From NCBI GenBank assembly GCA_021201665.1, contig JAJQEO010000059.1, forward strand, positions 1-64,000: a stretch of DNA of 64,000 nucleotides. Direction: 5' to 3'. This DNA comes from Lachnospiraceae bacterium (GTDB lineage Bacteria; Bacillota; Clostridia; Lachnospirales; Lachnospiraceae). Below are positions 6,452 to 31,120 of the stretch, piece after piece (position 1 is the first letter of the stretch; each line of letters opens with the position of its first letter). Both the position numbers and the translations under genes were made by a program. Under the pieces are notes generated by a model. That model made no database searches. It was not told the DNA's origin and was given only the letters and a program-made list of their open reading frames with translations.

Positions 6452-6661
6452 TTATTGAGAGCCCCCAAGCAGCTTGTCGTTACGATCGACATAATCGTAT
6501 GCTGCCTGCACCATCTCTCCCATATCTATTTCCGCCTCGTCAGAAAATTGCACTGCGCGGACAATGCAGCCCAGAATCGCCCTGGCCTTTCTGTTGTTCG
6601 CATCGATTTTATTTAGTCGCTCCACATCCATTAAATCCATCTCTTTTGTCCTCCTTCTCAT
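6452..6661 (-). CDS. Small uncharacterised protein (domain B)
   Basis: 69 residues, largely helical and acidic. The core DANNRKARAILGCIV and EMVQAAYDYVDRND is nearly the same as the C-terminal 60 residues of the NYN fusion at 14207-15244 (ADANNRKAKAILGSIV, EMLLAAYDYVVRND). It is therefore a free-standing version of that domain. ATG 6661 is preceded by AGGAGG-like sequence; promoter TTGACA-N17-TATAAT lies upstream on the same strand. Its partner downstream (5505-6338) carries the other shared domain. Confidence 0.75.
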   Translation of the reverse strand: MRRRTKEMDLMDVERLNKIDANNRKARAILGCIVRAVQFSDEAEIDMGEMVQAAYDYVDRNDKLLGGSQ

Positions 6662-6732
6662 ATTATTTTCAAACAGATTGTTTTGAGTCTCTTTTCATGG
6701 TTACTATAGATTGCTTTCGATCTGTTTTTATG

Positions 6733-6761
6733 ATTATAGCAGATATATACGTATCTGTCAA
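6733..6761 (-). promoter_or_regulatory. sigmaA promoter for the 6661-5505 unit
   Basis: On the minus strand TTGACA (6761-6756) and TATAAT (6738-6733) are consensus with a 17-base spacer. Direct copies of a GATCTGTTTT/TATCTGTTTT-like word flank it (6720-6800), a likely operator for the divergently encoded HTH protein. Confidence 0.8.
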
Positions 6762-6812
6762 CGGTGAATTAGATGTTTTTTTATCTGTTTTCAAGTATTA
6801 AAAAATCTTTTC

Positions 6813-6841
6813 TTGTTTTTGCTTGTTTCCATGTATATAAT
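6813..6841 (+). promoter_or_regulatory. Promoter of the divergent HTH regulator
   Basis: TTGTTT (6813-6818), 17-base spacer, TATAAT (6836-6841), 21 bases before the ATG at 6862. It is back to back with the minus-strand promoter at 6733-6761. Confidence 0.65.
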
Positions 6842-6861
6842 AAAAAAAGGCAGGTGATCAA

Positions 6862-7269
6862 ATGAATACGAAAATCAAAAAAATCCGGATAGCAAAAGGA
6901 CTTACTCAACAGCAACTTGGAGATCTGTGTGATCCCCCCGTCGCTGGAGCCAATATAAGAAAATACGAAAATGGGAAACAAACACCCAAATTGTCAACCT
7001 TACAAAAAATCGCGGCTGCTCTAGGGGTCAGTCCTTTCGACTTAATTGACGATGAGTATTTACCAAGTGATGAACCCATACAAACGAAATCAGCAAGCTG
7101 TTTCCTTGAGTCGTTTGGATATGATGTAAGTATGAGTGATCAATGTTATATTGTGTCAGGGCATGGTATATCTGTAGCCCTCTCTCAGGATGATTATTTG
7201 CAGCTACAATCTTCATCCAGTGATTTGATTTACGCTTTTTTATGGAAAAAACAGCATCCTCAGAATTAA
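6862..7269 (+). CDS. XRE-family helix-turn-helix regulator
   Basis: 135 residues. Residues 1-65 are a Cro/CI-type HTH: KIKKIRIAKGLTQQQLGDLC, IRKYENGKQTPKLSTLQKIAAALG. The C-terminal 70 residues have no recognised domain. The leader carries AAGGCAGGTGATCAA before the ATG. The gene is divergent from the 6661/6338 pair with back-to-back promoters and repeated words between them, so autoregulation and repression of that pair is the simplest reading (inference). Confidence 0.85.
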   Translation: MNTKIKKIRIAKGLTQQQLGDLCDPPVAGANIRKYENGKQTPKLSTLQKIAAALGVSPFDLIDDEYLPSDEPIQTKSASCFLESFGYDVSMSDQCYIVSGHGISVALSQDDYLQLQSSSSDLIYAFLWKKQHPQN

Positions 7270-8950: not shown

Positions 8951-9414
8951 CCGAGTTTTTCGGAAGCCTTTTACGATATTTCCCAGGCCAATTTTTGCAT
9001 CAGGAGCCCATTTTAGCAAAATCCACTGATTAACCGCAAAACGCCGTTTTTTCTTTCAAAAGGGTTCGATTTTGCCAAAATTACCCCCGAAAATGGCAAA
9101 TTTACTCGATTTTTTATTTTGCGCGTACAGACCATAAGCGCAATACCGGATGTCACATACTTTTCTGGCCCGTCTGCAATAGCAGAACCTTGGAACCGCT
9201 GCCAATGGCAGATCCACTCCGCGCATCCCGTGCGGACATTACAGCCTTAATGCTGCAGCTTCCAATATACAAGCCTGTCGCCGCCCCCTATGTCGAAGGA
9301 TCTATATCTGTCCTGCTCCAACTTATTCCGCGGTTTTCCATCCAGCCGGAAACGGTGACTCCGTATGGGGCAGGGGCGGTAACACGGCAGGCATACCGGG
9401 TAAAGCCATGGCAC

Positions 9415-9760
9415 AACCAGACGCCGTCACAGCCTTATCGAGGGGCTTCCATCAGATACTAACGCATATCGGGAAAGCGGAGGCGAACAAGGAACTGCCG
9501 CAGGCATGGGCGACCTATCCCCAGAACCAACCTCTTGCACCCCCTCCCGGCAGGAAACGATACGCCGTACGAACCAGGAATAACATTCAGCAGGCATGCC
9601 AGTAAGATCACGGCACAGCCAATCGCCGCACAGCCTTATCGAGGGTCCTGTCAGATACATGCACGCATACAGAAAAGCGGCGGCAGACAAGAAACTGTCG
9701 CAGACAGGAACGGATGCCTCCTTGGAGCCAACCCCTCAAAACAAAATGCAGAAAGAGTCA
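9415..9760 (+). repeat. Imperfect direct repeat, ~130-base unit, 201-base offset
   Basis: The block starting GGCACAACCAGACGCCGTCA with CACAGCCTTATCGAGG at 9428 recurs with CACAGCCTTATCGAGG at 9629. Downstream words CAGATAC, ACGCAT, AAAGCGG, GGC..ACAAG.AACTG.CGCAG and AGCCAACC also recur in order. Two copies are clear; copies may extend further left in more decayed form. Confidence 0.65.
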
Positions 9761-10092
9761 TAACAGCAGCCGCCTGCCATATACGTGGGAAAACCCGCCG
9801 CGCATGATAAAAACGAGCGAACAAGCTGACGGCTCTGCAGGTATGGCATACACATACTACGCTCGTTAGCTCCCGTCTGCTTCCGATCGGGAACACCCTC
9901 GCGCATAACAGGAAGGGAGCCTGTCGTCGTCCACCCACACAATATATCATGCTCATTTATATCCGTACGCGACGAAAACCTGAAAACCGGACATTCCAGA
10001 TATCGCAGCATAGAAACCCGCAGTATGATAACATAACTCTCTATATAGGAACCAGGACTGCCCATGCCGTACAGATCATACCTTTACTGGCA

Positions 10093-10188
10093 AGGACGGT
10101 CTTATCCGCAAATTTTTCTACCCCAGACATTTTTTGTTAATAAAGAAGCTTTTGAAAACATGCCGCCCTCCCCTTTCCAGACCGTCCT
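10093..10188 (+). repeat. Long inverted repeat AGGACGGTCT
   Basis: AGGACGGTCT (10093-10102) is perfectly complementary to AGACCGTCCT (10179-10188). The same word recurs as GGACAGTCTTG (about 10240) and GGACGGTCTTG (about 10272), the latter followed by an imperfect complement AAGACCATCC near 10311. Confidence 0.6.
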
Positions 10189-10375
10189 GCTTACCAAGAA
10201 AGACCTGCGATCCTGCTCCCAAAACCCTCTTTCTGATACGGACAGTCTTGTGGTCAAAAAAATATCCTGGTACGGACGGTCTTGTATCCAGAAAACAATC
10301 TTTACAAAGACCATCCCAAACAAATCCGTGCCAGACAAATCTCTTTTCATCAGAAAAGTTCCCAATAAAAAATTT

Positions 10376-10601
10376 CTATCTTATCTGATAGAATTTCTTT
10401 AAAAACTATCTGATTTGATAGTTTCTGTCTGAAATCTATCTAGTCTGATAGAATTTATTTTGAAACTATCATATCTGATAGAATTTTCTCTAAAACTATC
10501 AGAACTGATAGTTTTTCAAAACAAACTATCAGATGCGATAGAATTTTTTCTTAATCTATCTAATCTGATAGTTTTGGAAAATAATATATCAGTTCTGATA
10601 G
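10376..10601 (+). repeat. Eight CTATC-N6-GATAG palindromes at exact 30-bp pitch
   Basis: Sites begin at 10376, 10406, 10436, 10466, 10496, 10526, 10556 and 10586. Each is 16 bases; the consensus CTATCAGATCTGATAG is a perfect palindrome. The last site has ATATC in the left arm. The 14-base spacers are A/T-rich and differ from each other. Isolated copies lie at 10942-10957, 11861-11876 and 12063-12079 (7-base centre). The strict phasing, close to three helical turns, implies cooperative protein binding on one DNA face, as in iteron, centromere-like or operator arrays. Confidence 0.85.
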
Positions 10602-10681
10602 TTTTTCTGAATATCATGCTTCAACCATAAAAACATCCCATCTTCTCCAAATAAATTCCTGTCATAGAAATGATTATTGCG

Positions 10682-12220
10682 GCGGCACCCTCTTTCAAAA
10701 TATCTTTTCCAAGATGTGCCGCTGGCCGTCTTTTGCCATAAGAACTTTTTTGATGTCGTGCAAATTATCAATTTATTTCTGTTCCGAAAACACGGCTTTT
10801 CAAGCAACTTTGCAATTTCTTATTTTATACAAGACCGTCCCGCGGCGCGTCCCTTTAAAAAAACTTTTTCCCAAGAAGCGCGCCGCCATCCCTTGCTCCG
10901 GACGGTTTTTCTGTCTCCCAAAAATCGTATCAGGAAATTTTCTATCAGATATGATATTTTTTTAGAAATCCGTCCGGCAAAAATCGTCCCGGCTCGTTTT
11001 TGTAATAATCATCCAGGAAGAACGCGCCGGCAGACCTCTGCTCTGGATAATTTTCTATGACAGGAAGATTTGCCTCAAAGAATTTTTCATCAGACAGAAT
11101 TTATATGGATGGCGTGGTCCTGATTCGTCTTATAACCGTCGGGACGGGCCGCGTCTTCCGTTTTCTTCCAAATATTTCTCTTTCCAAAAAGAACTTCCCG
11201 GCGCGTTTTTAAAACAATCTTTCCAAAAAGACGCGCCGCTCTGCCGGAAATCTCTTTCTTGTCATCAGCAAGGTTTTAAGAACAACCGTTTTATCCTGAT
11301 AACGTTTCTGCAAAACAAATTGTTGCAGGGTATCCTGCCGTTCCCTTATCCTCTTCAAAAATTTTCTTTCAGACATTTTCTTTTCAGACAAAATTTTCCC
11401 GGCGCGTCTTTTAAACAATCCCTTTAACAGGACGCGCCGGATGGCAGAAATTTTTTTCGTGTCTCCAGCAAGGATTTTTCCCTAAAACTTCTTGTCTTTA
11501 CAAAAAAACGCCCTGCCTTTCCCTGATAATTCTTTCCAAAAGTATCCCGGCGCGTCTTTAAAAGAAAGGTCCGGCAGGAACGCGCCGGGACAGGAAATTC
11601 TTTTTCGAAAAAGAAATTCTTTCCCGCAGAATAAACTTTTGTCCTTTAAAAACATTCTTGGAATATATACATCCTAAAACATTTCCCTAATTTTCCCTGA
11701 TGACGCTTCGGATTACTACAAAAATTGGGGATCCGAACAGTAATGATGCGGCGCATCTTGGATAACAATTTCTTACCCGACGTGCGCCGGGACGACATTA
11801 TCCTTCCGAAAAAATATCTTTCACACAAAATCATCCTCAAAAAAAATCTTCATATAAAAACTATCTTATCTGATAGATTTTATTTTAGCAGACAAACAAT
11901 AACACACGGTTCAAGCAAAAAAAATTTCTGACAGATTCGTCCACATACAAAGATGTCTTACATCCAAAGAACAGTCTTTCACAAGAATATGATCCGGCGC
12001 TTTCCTGAAACAGAAATCCATAAAAGATGCCGCGCCGGACATCTTTCAATATTCATGAAAAGCTATCCAAATCTGATAGTTTTATTTTTACCAAAAATCA
12101 AGATTGAGAACACTACAGTCCAAGGCCTGGATAATAATTACCTGTAAGTAATGATTATTTTTTATTGACGATGATACGGCGCTCTCTTTAAAGAAACGGT
12201 TTTTAAAAAAGAACGCGCCG
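10682..12220 (+). repeat. Nine long GC dyads (CGGCGCGT ... ACGCGCCG)
   Basis: Inverted repeats of 40-45 bases at 10682-10722, 10842-10886, 10989-11030, 11199-11238, 11399-11440, 11547-11588, 11749-11789, 11994-12038 and 12177-12220. Arms are 6-10 bases (best CCGGCGCGTC/GACGCGCCGG at 11399/11431), loops ~23-33 bases and A/T-rich. Some have a second outer stem (GACCGTCC/GGACGGTT around 10842; AAAGATGTC/GACATCTTT around 11994). The two at 11199 and 11399 lie in a 200-base direct repeat that also shares a CAGCAAGG word downstream. Confidence 0.8.
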
Positions 12221-12293
12221 GACAGAATATGGCTGTAAAGTCTTCCTTTAAACAGAACTATTTAAGTCTTTAAATTGGTTCCTCATATGATTT

Positions 12294-12507
12294 GCAACTT
12301 TGCACCCTGGATTCCCATTTTTTGCAACATTTCACCTGTCTGGTGCCGCAAATCTTAACTGATTGACCGGTAATTTGATGTCAAGATACGGGAATTTTAA
12401 CTTTGCAGGTCAAAAGGGTTTAAAACTTTAACTTTTCACCCAGGAAATTTATCTTTTCGAAAAGACGGTCTTAAAGAAGGTCCGGTCACTCCAGAGGTGC
12501 AAAGTTA
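12294..12507 (+). repeat. Cluster of AACTTTGCACC words
   Basis: Direct variants at 12294-12307, 12324-12337, 12398-12409 and 12429-12441, and one inverted copy (GGTGCAAAGTTA) at 12496-12507. The inverted outer pair brackets ~200 bases immediately before a gene fragment. It could be an end of a lost mobile element or a small iteron-like binding cluster. Confidence 0.55.
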
Positions 12508-12514
12508 AAAATAA

Positions 12515-12787
12515 ATGTCACATGATCTGCGTGTTTTGACCGGCATCCCGATTCAGTATTTTCTGATTCCGGGGTATCTGATTGCGCTTGCTCTTTCCGG
12601 GATCGTGCCAAAGATGCCTGTATGTCAGACCAAAATGAAGCTGTTTTCAAGCTGCGGACATGCCTCTGACGACTTATCCGCATGCGCAGGGAAAAAGACA
12701 GATGCCCGCATGGGCAAAATGGATCAGGAGATGCTGGTAAAGCTGATTGCGCAGGAGGTGCAGAAACAGCTGCATAATCGCAGCTGA
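12515..12787 (+). pseudogene. Fused gene fragments: DUF1538-like membrane segment plus amphipathic tail
   Basis: 90 codons. The first part (DLRVLTGIPIQYFLIPGYLI, ALALSGIVPK) resembles a transmembrane stretch of DUF1538 membrane proteins, but the signature that should follow is replaced by unrelated sequence. The last ~20 residues, MDQEMLVKLIAQEVQKQL, form an amphipathic helix of the kind that targets enzymes into bacterial microcompartments. There is no ribosome site. I read it as the relic of a deletion that joined two genes; a genuine small fusion protein is less likely. Confidence 0.45.
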
Positions 12788-13110
12788 GTTTCGGCAGTCC
12801 GCTTAAGCTACTTTATAGAGTAAGCGATACCCATGTTTTGAAAAACGCAGGGCATACTCAGGATGATGATCTCCTATATATTTTTTAAAAGATGGTGCCG
12901 ATTTATCCCCGCCTCCCTTTGCCTCAAGCCTTGATAATTAAAGAAGATAAAATGCTAGAGATAAAGATCAGCGATGGGATTGAGTATTGTTGGAAAAGAT
13001 ATCCCAGACAATATAAATTCAGGTGAGCCGGAGTCGGCGGATGCAAGGAACCCTCAGGCAGAAAATTGTTTTACAATGCGAATGGCTAATTCGATTTTCA
13101 CAGTATGTGA

Positions 13111-13278
13111 AACCGGATTGGCTATCTGCGTAAGGAACTGCTTTGCAGCCATGCGTACCTGAAACCGGGGACTTATTTCGGTGTAGTGAGAGTAAAATCT
13201 GAAAGACACGGGGATAAGAGTGAATTGTTTGCCCAAGTGAGGAACATTGACCGGGTAAGAGTGATCGTGGAAGCATAG
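13111..13278 (+). pseudogene. C-terminal relic of an unrecognised protein
   Basis: An open stretch of 55 codons ends at TAG 13276-13278 and reads YLKPGTYFGVVRVKSER.. NIDRVRVIVEA, a beta-sandwich-like C-terminal strand pattern seen at the ends of secreted or multidomain enzymes. It has no start codon or upstream homologous sequence. A perfect 15-bp terminator follows 25 bases later, which supports a once-real gene end. Family not identified. Confidence 0.5.
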
Positions 13279-13303
13279 CTGGCAACAAGAGAATGACACT
13301 GGC

Positions 13304-13346
13304 AAAAGACCGGGAGCCGCAGATGAATTAGGCTCCCGGTCTTTTG
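13304..13346 (+). terminator. Strong rho-independent terminator
   Basis: AAAAGACCGGGAGCC (13304-13318) pairs perfectly with GGCTCCCGGTCTTTT (13331-13345), loop of 12 bases, T run inside the 3' arm; works in both directions. Confidence 0.88.
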
Positions 13347-13626
13347 TTTAACTGCGTGAGCTACCCGAGTTCGAATCAAGTATTATCCGAAAAAGAAATT
13401 ATTTGCTCTGATTTACAGACCTTATTCCCCGGCGGCAAGCAAAAATTCATAAATTCTGTCATAGCGGCACGAAACATAAGCATTCCTCCTCCCTGTTATG
13501 ATTCAACATACAGTATTTTGATGGAATAACAAGCATCCTGTAAACGAAAAAATGAAGGAAAATATCTGATTAAAACACATTTTTGGGAATGAATGACCCT
13601 TCCACTCGCCTCGTTTTAGTGTGCAT

Positions 13627-14206: not shown

Positions 14207-15244
14207 ATGAAGGATGAAGAAAATATCCACTTTCTGGTTGATTACGAAAATGTAGGCGAATCGGGGCTGGATGGGCTGGAATACCTGGAAAGCGCAGATA
14301 CACTTGCCATTTTTTACAGCGCCTCCTGCGATAAGATTTCCAGGAAATCGATAGACCTTATCATGAGCTCTGGCTGCAACTTTGAAACGTACCGCCTGAA
14401 AAAGACAGGGAAAAACGCACTGGATTTTTATATCATTTCCAGGGCTGGAGAATTGCTTGGGTCAGGTTATCCTGGGAAATTGGTTGTTATCAGCAAAGAT
14501 AAGGGCTACTGCGCAATGCGGGACTACTGGATGGCGCGTGGGATTCCGTCCCAACGAATATTAATCAAACATACGATCTGTGAGGGAATTATCGCATCCA
14601 ATGAGTGTAGCGCGCGCAGGAACTTGGCTATGAAGGAGTCTGCCCAGGTAAGTATAAATACGGAGTTTGCAAAATATCAAGAGCGGGAACGTTTAAGAAA
14701 ACAGATGGAAATTGTATTTTCCGGCACAGAATATGAAAATGCAGTATATTTTTTCCGGGATGGATTTGTGAGAGGAATCAATCGGATAAAGAGCTATGCC
14801 GGGACAACGTTGGGCTACGGCTTTCAACACGCTTTCCGAATCTTCGAAAATGCGGGAATTCAGCCGCCGGTTTTACTGCTTGGAAGCGAAGCGGAAAATG
14901 ATGCGATAATTGCTGCAGATGGGGAACGGTGCCGGGAAAGGATGAATCAGATTTTTAGGGTGGCATTAGGGTGGCCCGAGCATGAAGATTCTGAGCTTGA
15001 CAGAGAGAAAACTGTGCCTGAAAAGGCAGAAGCATTCCCCCTGACCGAATCTCAGATTATGCGGGCGGATGCCAACAACCGCAAGGCCAAAGCAATTTTA
15101 GGCAGCATTGTACATTCCATATACCTTTCCGATGAGGACTGTATTGATGTAACGGAAATGCTACTGGCTGCATACGACTATGTTGTTCGTAATGATGCGA
15201 TTCTGGGTTTTGACAGACAAAAACATTCACAGATTTCGCAATGA
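14207..15244 (+). CDS. NYN/PIN-like nuclease domain fused to two unknown domains
   Basis: 345 residues. Residues ~5-135 form a NYN (PIN-like RNase) domain: FLVDYENV (Asp12), NALDFYI (Asp73) and VISKDKGY (Asp98) are the acidic metal-binding positions expected. Residues ~150-250 carry domain A (GYGFQHAFRIFENAGI, LGSEAEN), shared with the protein at 5505-6338. Residues ~275-335 carry domain B (ADANNRKAKAILGSIV, EMLLAAYDYVVRND), shared with the 69-residue protein at 6452-6661. No signal or membrane helix. It follows the DUF6809-like gene by 57 bases and is in its operon. RNA cleavage is inferred from the NYN fold only. Confidence 0.8.
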   Translation: MKDEENIHFLVDYENVGESGLDGLEYLESADTLAIFYSASCDKISRKSIDLIMSSGCNFETYRLKKTGKNALDFYIISRAGELLGSGYPGKLVVISKDKGYCAMRDYWMARGIPSQRILIKHTICEGIIASNECSARRNLAMKESAQVSINTEFAKYQERERLRKQMEIVFSGTEYENAVYFFRDGFVRGINRIKSYAGTTLGYGFQHAFRIFENAGIQPPVLLLGSEAENDAIIAADGERCRERMNQIFRVALGWPEHEDSELDREKTVPEKAEAFPLTESQIMRADANNRKAKAILGSIVHSIYLSDEDCIDVTEMLLAAYDYVVRNDAILGFDRQKHSQISQ

Positions 15245-18258: not shown

Positions 18259-19503
18259 TCACGGTTTTCCGCGAGTCCGGGTTACGTATACCAGGGCATG
18301 GGCGTGACATAATGGGCAGGCCTTAACATCATGCCCCCACTTTATCTGTATTACTTCCGCTTTCGAGAGTCCTTCGTATTTCTCTTTGTACTTCCGGAAA
18401 CCCTGAAGGTTAAACAACAAGATGAGGTTGTTCTTTCGGTAACGATTATTCAGATAGCCAAAATATCGGATTTTCTGGAAACCTTTCGGGAGGACATGGA
18501 GCAGAAACCGAAGCACAAACTCTCTGGGAGTGACAGAAATCACTCTGGACTGGTGTCCATCCTTACCCCGTGCGGAAAAGCGGACTTCGTTCTTGCTGAC
18601 CGAAAGGATCCGAGATTCCGAAATGGCGATCTGGTATGTATACCTTCCAAGATATTCGATCGCGTTTCCCTTACCATTGAAGGTCTCTTTCACGTAGGCG
18701 ACCCATTTCTTATTGTAAAGGGAATCGCGGAACTCATTCCACTCGTAGGAATTCCGGTACTTTTCAAGTTCACCGTTGAGAGAGAGTTTATCGGACGCCC
18801 ATGCTTCCTGAAGTTCCGCAAGAAACTTTCCGCGGAATTTTGCGGCGAGGACGCTCTCCGGGATAAAAAAACCATCTGCGTGCAGGGCAACAAGCTTCCG
18901 GCCGTCGGTCAGGCCGCAGCCGGAGATGACGGCATGGATATGCGGGTGGTATAAAAGCTCCTGGTTCCAGGTGTGTAAAACCTGTATGATGCCAGGCACC
19001 GCCCCAAGGTATCCGGGATCCTGCGCAAGTTCGGTGATTGCGTGTCCAACACACCGATGAAACATGGAATACAGAAATTTCTTGTTTCCAAGGAAAAAGG
19101 GGTTCAGCTCATGCGGGCAGGTAAAAACCGCGTGGTAATAAGCGCAATCCAGGACTTCCGAGCTGCGCTTGTCAACCCATAATTCTTTCCGGAGCTTCCC
19201 GCAGATGGGACAGGAACGGTTGCCGCAGGAATTGTAATGGATGACCAGCCTGTCGCAAGCGGTACATTTTTCCACATTAAAACCGCAGGAATCCGAACGG
19301 CATCCGACGATATCATCAATCACCTGCCGCTGCTCAGCTGACAGGGAAAGGCTTCTGTCAGCAAGGATGGCCGACCCGGCAATCTGGAAAATGTCGCGTA
19401 TTTTTGAAGGAGTAGAATCTCCTCTAAAGTCGGCAGCAAAGAAAAGCCGGTCTTCAACGGACAGATCAGAGAAGTCTTCAGGGGAAGCATTATCAGACCA
19501 CAT
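18259..19503 (-). CDS. IS91 family transposase
   Basis: 414 residues. N-terminal zinc-binding part with CTACD, SCGNRSCPICG; HUH-type YHPHIHAVISGCGL (His-hydrophobic-His); and the tyrosine pair in EYLGRYTYQIAIS, the nucleophiles of Y2 rolling-circle transposases. C-terminal CPLCHAHALVYVT is a second Cys/His pair. All parts appear intact. It overlaps the upstream recombinase gene by 11 bases. Confidence 0.93.
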   Translation of the reverse strand: MWSDNASPEDFSDLSVEDRLFFAADFRGDSTPSKIRDIFQIAGSAILADRSLSLSAEQRQVIDDIVGCRSDSCGFNVEKCTACDRLVIHYNSCGNRSCPICGKLRKELWVDKRSSEVLDCAYYHAVFTCPHELNPFFLGNKKFLYSMFHRCVGHAITELAQDPGYLGAVPGIIQVLHTWNQELLYHPHIHAVISGCGLTDGRKLVALHADGFFIPESVLAAKFRGKFLAELQEAWASDKLSLNGELEKYRNSYEWNEFRDSLYNKKWVAYVKETFNGKGNAIEYLGRYTYQIAISESRILSVSKNEVRFSARGKDGHQSRVISVTPREFVLRFLLHVLPKGFQKIRYFGYLNNRYRKNNLILLFNLQGFRKYKEKYEGLSKAEVIQIKWGHDVKACPLCHAHALVYVTRTRGKP

Positions 19504-20371
19504 GGGAAATCACCATTCCTTTCATGGGGCTGTCGTAATGCCGAAGGCCTAATTCTGCTAAATGCACATAGATAGCAGTGGTGGCAACAGAGGAATGACC
19601 GAGCTGTCTGGAGAGGGTCAGGAGATCCATGCCATCCTGGTAACTGTGTGTAGCAAATGCCCTGCGAAGCGAATGGCAGGTCAGTTTACAATCCCATCCC
19701 AGAGCGGCAACCTGCTTTTTCATATAGCCCTGGATGAACTGCGGATAAATCGGCTTTGAAATGTCGCGCTGCTGGGTAAAAAGCCAGTCGCGGCTTTTCA
19801 TCCCACGGGGAAGAGAGCGCCAGTAATCACAGATGATCTCGTAAGCTTCATCTGCGAGGACAACATAGCGGTCTTTCCGGTTTTTCCCAGGGGCGACATA
19901 AACGCAGGAAGCAGAATGGCGGATGTCAGCACATTTCAGACAGCAAACCTCGCTGATACGGAGCCCGGAAGAATAGAGAAGGGAAATCATTGCCTTTTTC
20001 TTCTTATCATCGACTGAGGAAAGAAAAGCTGCAATGGTGTCGCGGTCAGGGACATAAGACAGACATCTGTCAGTCTTACGATGCGGGACCTGTTTCGGGT
20101 TCCAGGTGATGCCAAGCACCGCTTCGAAGAAAAAGCGGAGTTCAGAAATAGCATGGTTGACTGTGCTGTCAGCGAGCCCACGCTGCTGCTGAAGATTTGT
20201 AATGTAGGTTCGAATATCATGCGCAGATACATCCGCGGGGTCCTTATGGAGGACATCCACACAATAATCAAGGAATGGAGCGACATATGTCTTGTAAGAT
20301 TTGATTGTATTGGCACTGCGGTTGCCAAAAGTAAGAATTTCTTCGATTTCATTGAGATAGTTTTCTTTCAT
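19493..20371 (-). CDS. Tyrosine recombinase of the IS91-type element
   Basis: 292 residues. N-terminal SAM-like core-binding domain (TIKSYKTYVAPFLDYC) and C-terminal catalytic domain with SSGLRISEV (Arg), CHSLRRAFATHS (His-x-x-Arg), RQLGHSSVATTAIYVH (His and Tyr nucleophile). XerC/D-like size. IS91-group elements in several phyla carry such a gene directly before the transposase; its role in transposition is not settled. The start is followed upstream by the element's promoter region (20372-20653). Confidence 0.9.
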   Translation of the reverse strand: MKENYLNEIEEILTFGNRSANTIKSYKTYVAPFLDYCVDVLHKDPADVSAHDIRTYITNLQQQRGLADSTVNHAISELRFFFEAVLGITWNPKQVPHRKTDRCLSYVPDRDTIAAFLSSVDDKKKKAMISLLYSSGLRISEVCCLKCADIRHSASCVYVAPGKNRKDRYVVLADEAYEIICDYWRSLPRGMKSRDWLFTQQRDISKPIYPQFIQGYMKKQVAALGWDCKLTCHSLRRAFATHSYQDGMDLLTLSRQLGHSSVATTAIYVHLAELGLRHYDSPMKGMVISHVV

Positions 20372-29595: not shown

Positions 29596-29672
29596 AGAAT
29601 GTAGAAATACATACCTGGGCCGTGCTATTATATATTCGTTGCACGGCCCGTCATGGAAAGGAGGAAATTATT

Positions 29673-30905
29673 TTGACGGGTAGCATTATTGTAAAGAAAA
29701 TGTCATCGGGAAAAGAATTTTTCTACGTACATTTATCCTACAAGGATCCTTCCACTTTAAAATGGAAAACAAAGGATATCCGGACAGGGTTGGAAGTAAA
29801 GGGTAATAAGAGAAGGGCAGAAGCTTTGGTTAATGAAGTCATTGAAAGATACTCATACCTTGAGCGGCTTACCCCTGCGCAGTTCGATATCAGCCCTGAG
29901 ATTGAGCTTTGTGATTTTCTCGATATCTGGCTGAAGAAAAAGGAATTGGAGATTTGCGGCAATACACATGACACATATTTGAGCCGCACCGGAGCCATCC
30001 GGCGTTACTTCGGCCCGAGGCATACAAAGCTCCGCGAAGTCACACCGTCTATCCTGGATGATTTTTTCAGCTACTGCCTGCAGTATGGTAAAGTCAGCCA
30101 GAAAGATCAGAGCCTTGGCCCCCTATCCGTACGTACTGTGCGGAGCATAAAAAGCATCCTCTATGCTCTTTTCGACTATGCCATAATTAAGCTTGGCTTG
30201 TCAGGCAATCCGGTAGCGAATACGAAAGTTACCAACAAAAAGAACAGCGATTTTGCCGAAGAGATGCTTTTTCTGGCTGAGGATGAAATCAGGGAAGTGC
30301 TTGAATTCCTTGCGGAAAATTATCCATTTCTCAAGGCTATCGCTTTCGTAGGTATTTATTACGGCCTGCGGCGGGAGGAAATCCTTGGCTTAAAATGGAC
30401 AGCTGTAAATTACAAGCGCAAGGTACTGACCATCTGCCATACTGTAACCGGAAGTTCCACCATATATAAGAGGGATAAGACAAAGACAATCGAAGGACGC
30501 AGGCAGTTAAACCTGTTCCCTACAGCTGAACAGTGCTTTCAGCAATTGAAGGAAGAACAGGATGCCAACCTTGCTTTTTTCGGAAATACGTACAAAGACA
30601 CGCAAGGCTATGTCTTCACACACGAGGACGGACGTCCATACCGTCCTGACTACATTACCCACAAGTTTTCTGAGGCAATGGATGAATTTGGGCGGCCGGA
30701 GATTACTTTACATAAACTGCGTTATACCTGTGCCTCTCTCCTGATCGATAAAGGATGGGATATCAAGAAGGTCCAGTATTGGCTCGGGGACCGTGATGCG
30801 AGCACAGTTATGAATATTTACGCGCAATATCTGAAACACAAGGCTAATTCTGCTGAAAATGATCTGACAGCAATGTCAGATTGCGTCTCGGATCTTTTTG
30901 AATAA
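29673..30905 (+). CDS. Tyrosine-type integrase of the island
   Basis: About 410 residues. TTG start at 29673, chosen for the AAAGGAGG 8-9 bases upstream; an ATG at 29622 has none. N-terminal AP2-like arm-binding domain, SAM-like domain (LCDFLDIWLKKKELEI), catalytic domain with YYGLRREEILGLKW (Arg), LHKLRYTCASLL (His-Lys-Leu-Arg) and MNIYAQYLKHK (Tyr). The usual second His (LGHxxxxTT) is LGDRDASTV here. Its 3' end lies 141 bases from the tRNA-Pro gene's 3' end, which marks the probable attachment site. Confidence 0.9.
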   Translation: MTGSIIVKKMSSGKEFFYVHLSYKDPSTLKWKTKDIRTGLEVKGNKRRAEALVNEVIERYSYLERLTPAQFDISPEIELCDFLDIWLKKKELEICGNTHDTYLSRTGAIRRYFGPRHTKLREVTPSILDDFFSYCLQYGKVSQKDQSLGPLSVRTVRSIKSILYALFDYAIIKLGLSGNPVANTKVTNKKNSDFAEEMLFLAEDEIREVLEFLAENYPFLKAIAFVGIYYGLRREEILGLKWTAVNYKRKVLTICHTVTGSSTIYKRDKTKTIEGRRQLNLFPTAEQCFQQLKEEQDANLAFFGNTYKDTQGYVFTHEDGRPYRPDYITHKFSEAMDEFGRPEITLHKLRYTCASLLIDKGWDIKKVQYWLGDRDASTVMNIYAQYLKHKANSAENDLTAMSDCVSDLFE

Positions 30906-30980
30906 TTTCGTAGAATTTTTCGTAGAATTTTTTAGGGAATTCATTTGGCGGCGCTGAAAACGATATTTTTTCATCGGCGC

Positions 30981-31020
30981 AAAAAAATACCGGAAACGCT
31001 GCATTTATCAGTGTTTCCGG
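30981..31020 (-). terminator. Terminator of the tRNA-Pro transcript
   Basis: CCGGAAAC (30990-30997)/GTTTCCGG (31013-31020), followed on the minus strand by TATTTTTTT. It also closes the integrase from the other side, less well. Confidence 0.8.
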
Positions 31021-31046
31021 CATTCTTCAACGCCCCTGCCAAGGAG

Positions 31047-31120
31047 TCGATGCGACAGGATTTGAACCTGCGACCTCTGCGTCCCGAACGCAGCGCTCTA
31101 CCAAGCTGAGCCACGCATCG
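31047..31120 (-). tRNA. tRNA-Pro (anticodon CGG)
   Basis: Minus-strand cloverleaf: acceptor CGATGCG/CGCATCG with discriminator A, D arm GCTC..GAGC, anticodon arm CTGCG-TTCGGGA-CGCAG (CGG, reads CCG), T arm GCAGG-TTCAAAT-CCTGT. The CCA end is not encoded. The gene is intact, and the integrase gene lies on its 3' side, the usual arrangement for an element inserted in the 3' end of a tRNA gene. Confidence 0.95.

Follow-up and report, generated by a model that had tools for sequence, protein, structure and literature searches.

Architecture and rarity of the array

Which protein, if any, reads a row of eight short inverted repeats set at a fixed pitch in a gene-poor, non-coding stretch beside which no gene start was recognised? 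The row lies in the window (the whole stretch of DNA analysed here, 64 kb) and is accompanied by three outlying sites:

10376..10601, no strand: array of eight 16-bp near-palindromes (YTATC-N6-GATAR type) at an exact 30-bp pitch
10376..10391, no strand: site 1, CTATCTTATCTGATAG
10406..10421, no strand: site 2, CTATCTGATTTGATAG
10436..10451, no strand: site 3, CTATCTAGTCTGATAG
10466..10481, no strand: site 4, CTATCATATCTGATAG
10496..10511, no strand: site 5, CTATCAGAACTGATAG
10526..10541, no strand: site 6, CTATCAGATGCGATAG
10556..10571, no strand: site 7, CTATCTAATCTGATAG
10586..10601, no strand: site 8, ATATCAGTTCTGATAG (ATATC...GATAG, one mismatch)
10942..10957, no strand: outlying site, CTATCAGATATGATAT (CTATC...GATAT, one mismatch)
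11861..11876, no strand: outlying exact site, CTATCTTATCTGATAG
12063..12079, no strand: outlying site with a 7-base centre, CTATCCAAATCTGATAG (CTATC-N7-GATAG, one base longer)

An earlier note on this DNA had described eight CTATC-N6-GATAG sites at exactly 30 bp and three further single copies. The eight starts (10376 to 10586) hold to the base, but the exact sequence is present in seven of the eight sites, the last beginning with ATATC; likewise, the copy at 11861 is exact, but that at 10942 is one base off and that at 12063 has the longer centre. Exact CTATC-N6-GATAG occurs at eight places in the window (seven in the array plus 11861), and the whole 4.7-Mb genome holds these same 8 matches, all inside the window, against 1 for the reversed-pattern control. 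When one mismatch was allowed, 10 matches were found in the 64 kb, whereas 100 dinucleotide-preserving shuffles averaged 1.52 and never exceeded 6. A scan of the window for any 5-bp inverted half-site repeated in at least three copies within 320 bp returned the array as its sole result. Four exact spellings of the motif were absent from the literature searched, and the listing obtained for tandem operators and XRE proteins contained nothing directly on such an array.

Folding scores over the array are extreme on both strands, but palindromes yield such scores by themselves and we claim no RNA role. In Rfam, tRNA alone reached the gathering threshold; three sub-threshold matches within 9000-13600, two of them to eukaryote families, were taken as chance. 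The surrounding non-coding DNA has repeats of its own. Nine inverted repeats with footprints of 41-45 bp (CGGCGCG...CGCGCCG type) lie within 10274-12221, most of them 147-245 bp apart, and a tenth of this type was seen by eye at 12176-12221, so that the family extends around and behind the array. Per kb, G+C-rich hairpins are no commoner near the array than elsewhere in the window, and the family near the array displayed no covariation (0 of 4 predicted pairs). Another G+C-rich non-coding stretch, at 9160-9760, contains by eye two diverged repeats of about 190 bp. Further along, an integrase gene beside tRNA-Pro (29622-31120) perhaps marks the end of an integrated element, and another integrase occurs with an IS91-type (Y2) transposase at 18259-20371.

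Conservation within the 30-bp unit

Over the eight units the two half-sites are 95% and 100% alike, and conservation extends into the spacers to give a unit of 24 bp, AAnCTATC-N6-GATAGnnTTT, i.e., the site with A/T flanks. Base by base, the TTT after and the AA before the sites are kept in 7 or 8 of 8 units. Among the seven complete spacers, likeness at these flank positions (19-21 and 28-29) is 0.886 compared with 0.384 in shuffles, whereas the remaining spacer bases, at 0.312 against the same 0.384, are at chance level. The statement that the 14-base spacers and 6-base centres vary is thus correct in general but does not hold for the TTT/AA flanks, which do not vary freely. The spacers are 87% A+T, against 58-61% in the flanking DNA. 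The sites are slightly lopsided in one direction: the right half is preceded by CT in 6/8, the left half followed by the mirror-image AG in 3/8.

Because sites and A/T flanks are conserved and the other spacer bases are not, the constraint appears to act on the sites, and recent tandem duplication does not explain the array; the earlier view that this is no simple tandem duplication is borne out. The same pattern makes it very improbable that the array is an old functionless tandem repeat, although Tandem Repeats Finder (TRF) does report periods of 30, 60 and 90 bp. The recurrence of the motif at other spacings in a related genome (G033, below) also speaks against such a repeat.

The half-sites TATC and GATA start 10 bp apart (TATC-N6-GATA). 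An HTH dimer that docks on one face of the DNA should have half-site starts about one helical turn apart, and the inverted half-sites of the array fit this. The array is a genuine cluster of sites suited to a dimeric HTH protein, and the eight sites are very likely docking sites for a putative paired DNA-binding protein, perhaps a phage-repressor-like regulator, for which we have a candidate.

Recurrence of the motif in related genomes

Clusters were accepted in three of 47 genomes of the genus: the window's own (G000), G061 and G033. The G061 cluster (contig C160) consists of two sites 30 bp apart. In a blastn search of the 47 genomes with 10040-12500, this contig gave the sole match besides self (50 bp, 84%), and a second non-coding element of the window has a relative close to the G061 cluster:

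9015..9117, no strand: non-coding element, 87% identical to a relative 174 bp from the G061 cluster

Within the four genomes searched with this element, two had a match, one each in the window genome and in G061. G033 carries three clusters on three contigs: six sites with spacings of 32, 20, 32, 20 and 32 bp on C156, two sites at 29 bp on C130, and four exact sites plus weaker ones, irregularly spaced, on C173. The motif recurs in relatives and the 30-bp rule does not, since spacings of 29, alternating 32/20 and irregular make the 30-bp pitch no rule of the motif. The earlier note had read the pitch as selection on an exact spacing and had named its loss in related strains as the outcome that would count against this; G061 keeps 30 bp, but the G033 spacings deviate, and strict selection on the pitch is not supported.

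The searches behind these clusters differed in stringency. Pairs of TATC-N6-GATA sites 8-38 bp apart occurred in 8/47 genomes (reversed control, 1), and a stricter consensus, TATCAKATMTGATA, in 4/47 (G000, G033, G008 and G010; control, 0), the latter missing both G061 sites. A two-site pattern at 30 bp with up to two mismatches matched 1/60 relatives, namely the window's own genome, in a set to which G061 did not belong. The exact two-site 30-bp pattern matched 4 of 392 genomes of the order (reversed control, 3), among which the window's own alone looked real.

Several candidates were set aside. Judged from the matched letters only, these were the two-site matches in G022, G060 and G028 (reversed control, 1 genome), in G032, G067, G000:C103 and G033:C162 (control, 1 genome), and in G158, G180 and G374 (control, 3 genomes); the G004 match likewise looked like chance by its letters. 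Three ATATC...GATAT sites in G012 sit in near-identical 40-bp repeats in a cobalamin/siroheme-type neighbourhood and were judged unrelated. Single consensus sites in G000:C3, G008 and G010 (loci L045, L044 and L046) were dropped, two of which fall within an ORF or at its end, as was a cluster inside a phage gene (L085). The single stretch returned by the genome contig scan (L008) read as a duplicated terminator-like hairpin and a coincidence. Searches of plasmid and phage records with the array DNA returned 3 and 23 records, in which the listed matches were all short (E 0.06 to 0.7) and were taken as noise.

The XRE gene and its neighbourhood

The earlier note had set aside the HTH gene starting at 6862 when it saw no obvious cognate gene; it is now the best candidate partner. 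The relevant features are:

6862..7269, plus strand: XRE/Cro-CI-type HTH gene, best candidate partner (Pfam HTH_3, 1.8e-14, plus an unclassified C-terminal part)
6464..6619, minus strand: part of a small ORF divergent from the XRE gene (79% over 52 aa to 10122-10277 of the G033 locus L040)

In the window, 3.1 kb separate the XRE gene from the array, with GCV_T-like and AAA-like fragments between them. In G033, the C156 cluster (L040 9190-9341) is flanked by a Tn7-like gene set and, on its other side, by an XRE gene (9495-9923, minus strand) that is 39% identical to 6862-7269; the cluster follows this gene at a distance of 153 bp. The order small ORF, XRE gene, array is common to both genomes, with the small ORF divergent on the far side of the XRE gene. 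A second relative of the small ORF, at 15038-15208 of the window (67% identity), has no cluster beside it.

A profile made from the two XRE proteins matched 12 of the 47 genus genomes at E <= 1e-12, the seeds scoring 252 and 267 bits and the next match 77, a gap that arises partly by construction because the profile was built from those two proteins. The chance that both seeds fall within the three genomes with accepted clusters is 0.0028, a figure weakened by linkage and by our own choice of clusters. In 397 genomes of the family, one further match was found at E <= 1e-22, covering 96 of 147 positions. Relatives of the profile with solved structures include SinR, HipB and the 434 repressor.

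Other observations fit this pairing less well. G061 has no profile match at E <= 1e-12 despite its cluster. The recognition helices of the window and G033 proteins, as placed by eye, differ. Cro/CI-type regulators commonly bind their own promoter, and a weight-matrix scan found the array motif in neither XRE promoter region. The promoter region of the window gene (6640-6860) does contain repeated ATCTGTTT/AAACAGAT motifs, seen by eye, which are possibly the real operators of this XRE protein.

A link between such clusters and XRE genes was also sought in viral contigs, where the clusters described in the next section were found. Five of 85 phage clusters among the matches listed have an XRE gene within 500 bp (random placement gave a mean of 2.3 and at most 7), which is not clearly an enrichment overall. 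Among the matches listed, those with at least half of their spacings at 28-34 bp, a split chosen after seeing the data, have one within 400 bp in 3/12 cases (0.73 expected), compared with 0/73 for the other clusters. With a control half-site, clusters near an XRE gene numbered 0/20 at 28-34 bp, 0/18 at 20-25 bp and 4/18 at other pitches, which speaks against a general link between a 28-34 bp pitch and XRE genes. In one of the three XRE-adjoining phage clusters (L124), three sites resembling the G033 ones precede an HTH_3/HTH_37 gene. In this region (L124 1101-1785) the gene is HigA-like and is preceded by a small ORF that is HigB-like by eye; the three sites upstream of it, TTATCATNNNTGATAR, have spacings of 31 and 24 bp.

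Possible alternatives: a regulator in trans, transposon ends or a centromere

The sites could instead be operators of another dimeric regulator, encoded elsewhere and acting in trans on several loci. This is a minority possibility with some weight: just one of the three G033 clusters, each on a contig of its own, has a close XRE gene of the 6862 kind, and the compared cluster regions have few other genes in common (an integrase fragment, a UmuC-like gene and some common families). Against it, no such regulator was found with the queries in hand, a weak negative as the genomes were searched by these queries alone.

The Tn7-like neighbourhood in G033 raises a different question, namely whether the sites are transposon ends bound by TnsB. 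One G033 cluster adjoins tnsA, TnsA-, rve/TnsB-, TniB/TnsC- and TniQ-like genes in L040 begin 443 bp from the cluster, and G061 and G033 both have TnsB matches. But the window genome has no TnsB match at E <= 1e-10, and the remainder of contig C156 has no further exact copy of the motif, with other repeats at the tniQ side. TnsB sites are not known to be palindromic, which we also count against this reading; we consider it highly improbable. The genes themselves form a compact Tn7-like element at about 1690-9160 of L040 with TnsA-, TnsB-, TnsC- and TniQ-like genes, and repeated TATACC...CTGTTG motifs at its tniQ side look like end sites (ends placed by eye).

Some centromeres are tandem palindromes at a fixed pitch, an architecture that the array shares, and a partition centromere of the ParB, ParR or TubR type had been among the earlier suggestions together with replication iterons and a multi-site operator. 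The operator and iteron ideas survive, but the centromere gained no support. A Pfam scan of 20 window ORFs (5505-32000; 7 matched no family) found no partition gene and no ParB- or Rep-type gene, in agreement with the earlier statement that none adjoins the array. In addition, the presence of tRNA-Pro and integrase genes on this contig hints at a chromosomal location, which argues against a centromere and leaves it barely credible.

Clusters in phages and O-type iterons

A scan of viral contigs for three TATC-N6-GATA sites returned 100 stretches. Phage clusters of at least three sites numbered at least 104, or at least 85 after removal of copies, with 81 from the three-site scan and at least 4 from a two-site scan. 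Of 85 clusters among the matches listed, 66 lie within an ORF of at least 50 aa, 45 of them in the middle of an ORF of 200-420 aa; a stricter choice of genes places 64 of the 85 listed clusters in genes. When 56 of the 66 ORFs were scanned, 40/56 matched phrog_678 (‘replication initiation O-like’) and 26/56 matched Phage_rep_O. Searching instead for TTAC/GTAA, a control half-site of the same composition, yielded 76 stretches; these held 56 clusters once copies were removed, and 6/56 were mid-gene (p = 1.5e-7). By this mid-gene excess over the control, TATC-N6-GATA is a preferred O-type iteron in phages.

The abundance of control clusters also indicates that clusters of palindromes, irrespective of motif, are frequent in phages. 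Control GTTAC-N6-GTAAC clusters (several of the loci L307-L371) are often intergenic and spaced at 30-33 bp, and a few genes near them match terminases (at most 3/41 scanned per family). Two loci of one phage contig (L118 and L188, IMGVR_UViG_3300040959_000824) have ATATC-N6-GATAT-like sites at spacings that are mostly multiples of 12 bp, with ten in a row in L118.

These data make iterons of an O-like initiator a serious rival to the XRE reading, albeit an unlikely one. The array would then be a replication origin recognised by a winged-helix initiator of the phage O-like type, or a derivative of such an origin; its present place in non-coding DNA would make it a relic, a satellite origin or a decoy. 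Its tandem TATC-N6-GATA palindromes are a trait of O-type origins and its A/T-rich spacers fit an origin. However, a home-made profile from 46 phage ORFs found no O-like initiator in frames of at least 50 aa in the window or in the fetched G061 and G033 stretches, the phage pitches are mostly 21-24 bp (about two helical turns) and not 30 bp, the array lies outside any gene, and its exact 30-bp arrangement was not found in the viral contigs.

A more specific proposal, which we regard as very improbable, is that the array imitates a phage replication origin within the chromosome: O-type iterons without the initiator, kept in mobile or defence-linked islands. As a decoy, it would soak up the O-like initiator of an invading phage; as a satellite, the island would borrow the phage initiator to replicate itself. 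Two of the three G033 clusters adjoin genes matching the candidate defence families PDC-M31A/B and PDC-M26A.

A proposed docking platform for HTH dimers and its relation to known systems

The reading that we favour, while holding it tentatively, is that the array is a docking platform of a homodimeric HTH protein, most likely an XRE protein of a mobile element, with 6862-7269 as the best candidate gene. That this gene product is the partner is a proposal of similar standing, suggested by the XRE-array neighbourhood of G033, and the stretch with the array probably belongs to mobile DNA. Each 16-bp unit, with its two TATC/GATA half-sites and A/T-rich flanks, would take one dimer on one face of the DNA. 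XRE dimers occupying the eight sites side by side could then build a nucleoprotein filament, and such a filament might silence or insulate the stretch.

Operators of the Cro/CI and HipB (XRE) type resemble the array in having short inverted half-sites for an HTH dimer, but the array has eight or more sites and is at no recognised promoter. The available part of one report (PMC3376134) describes E. coli HipB as binding TATCCN8GGATA cooperatively at four sites, and on that account XRE proteins reading TATC/GATA half-sites exist. The HipB half-site (TATCC/GGATA) as given there resembles that of the array, but the gap between TATC and GATA is 10 bases in HipB and 6 in the array. Mycobacteriophage repressor stoperators are another precedent, with numerous repressor sites outside early promoters according to the part of the source at hand (PMC9283540); as described there, a monomer repressor binds an asymmetric sequence, in contrast to the near-palindromes in a tight array seen here. 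The iterons of phage O-like initiators (lambda-O-type origins) share the tandem TATC-N6-GATA palindromes, but are mostly at 21-24 bp and inside the initiator gene, whereas the array is at 30 bp, in non-coding DNA, with no initiator gene found. The array is accordingly a variant of multi-site operators or iterons, classes that are already known.

Within these classes, it is unusually long and regular, is away from any recognised promoter and has no obvious partner gene, which makes it a place to test for a role in regulation, replication or defence. If a phage initiator were the true partner, the array would suggest that the host or satellites mimic phage origins. If the XRE protein were the true partner, it would be an element repressor that builds a long filament in intergenic DNA.
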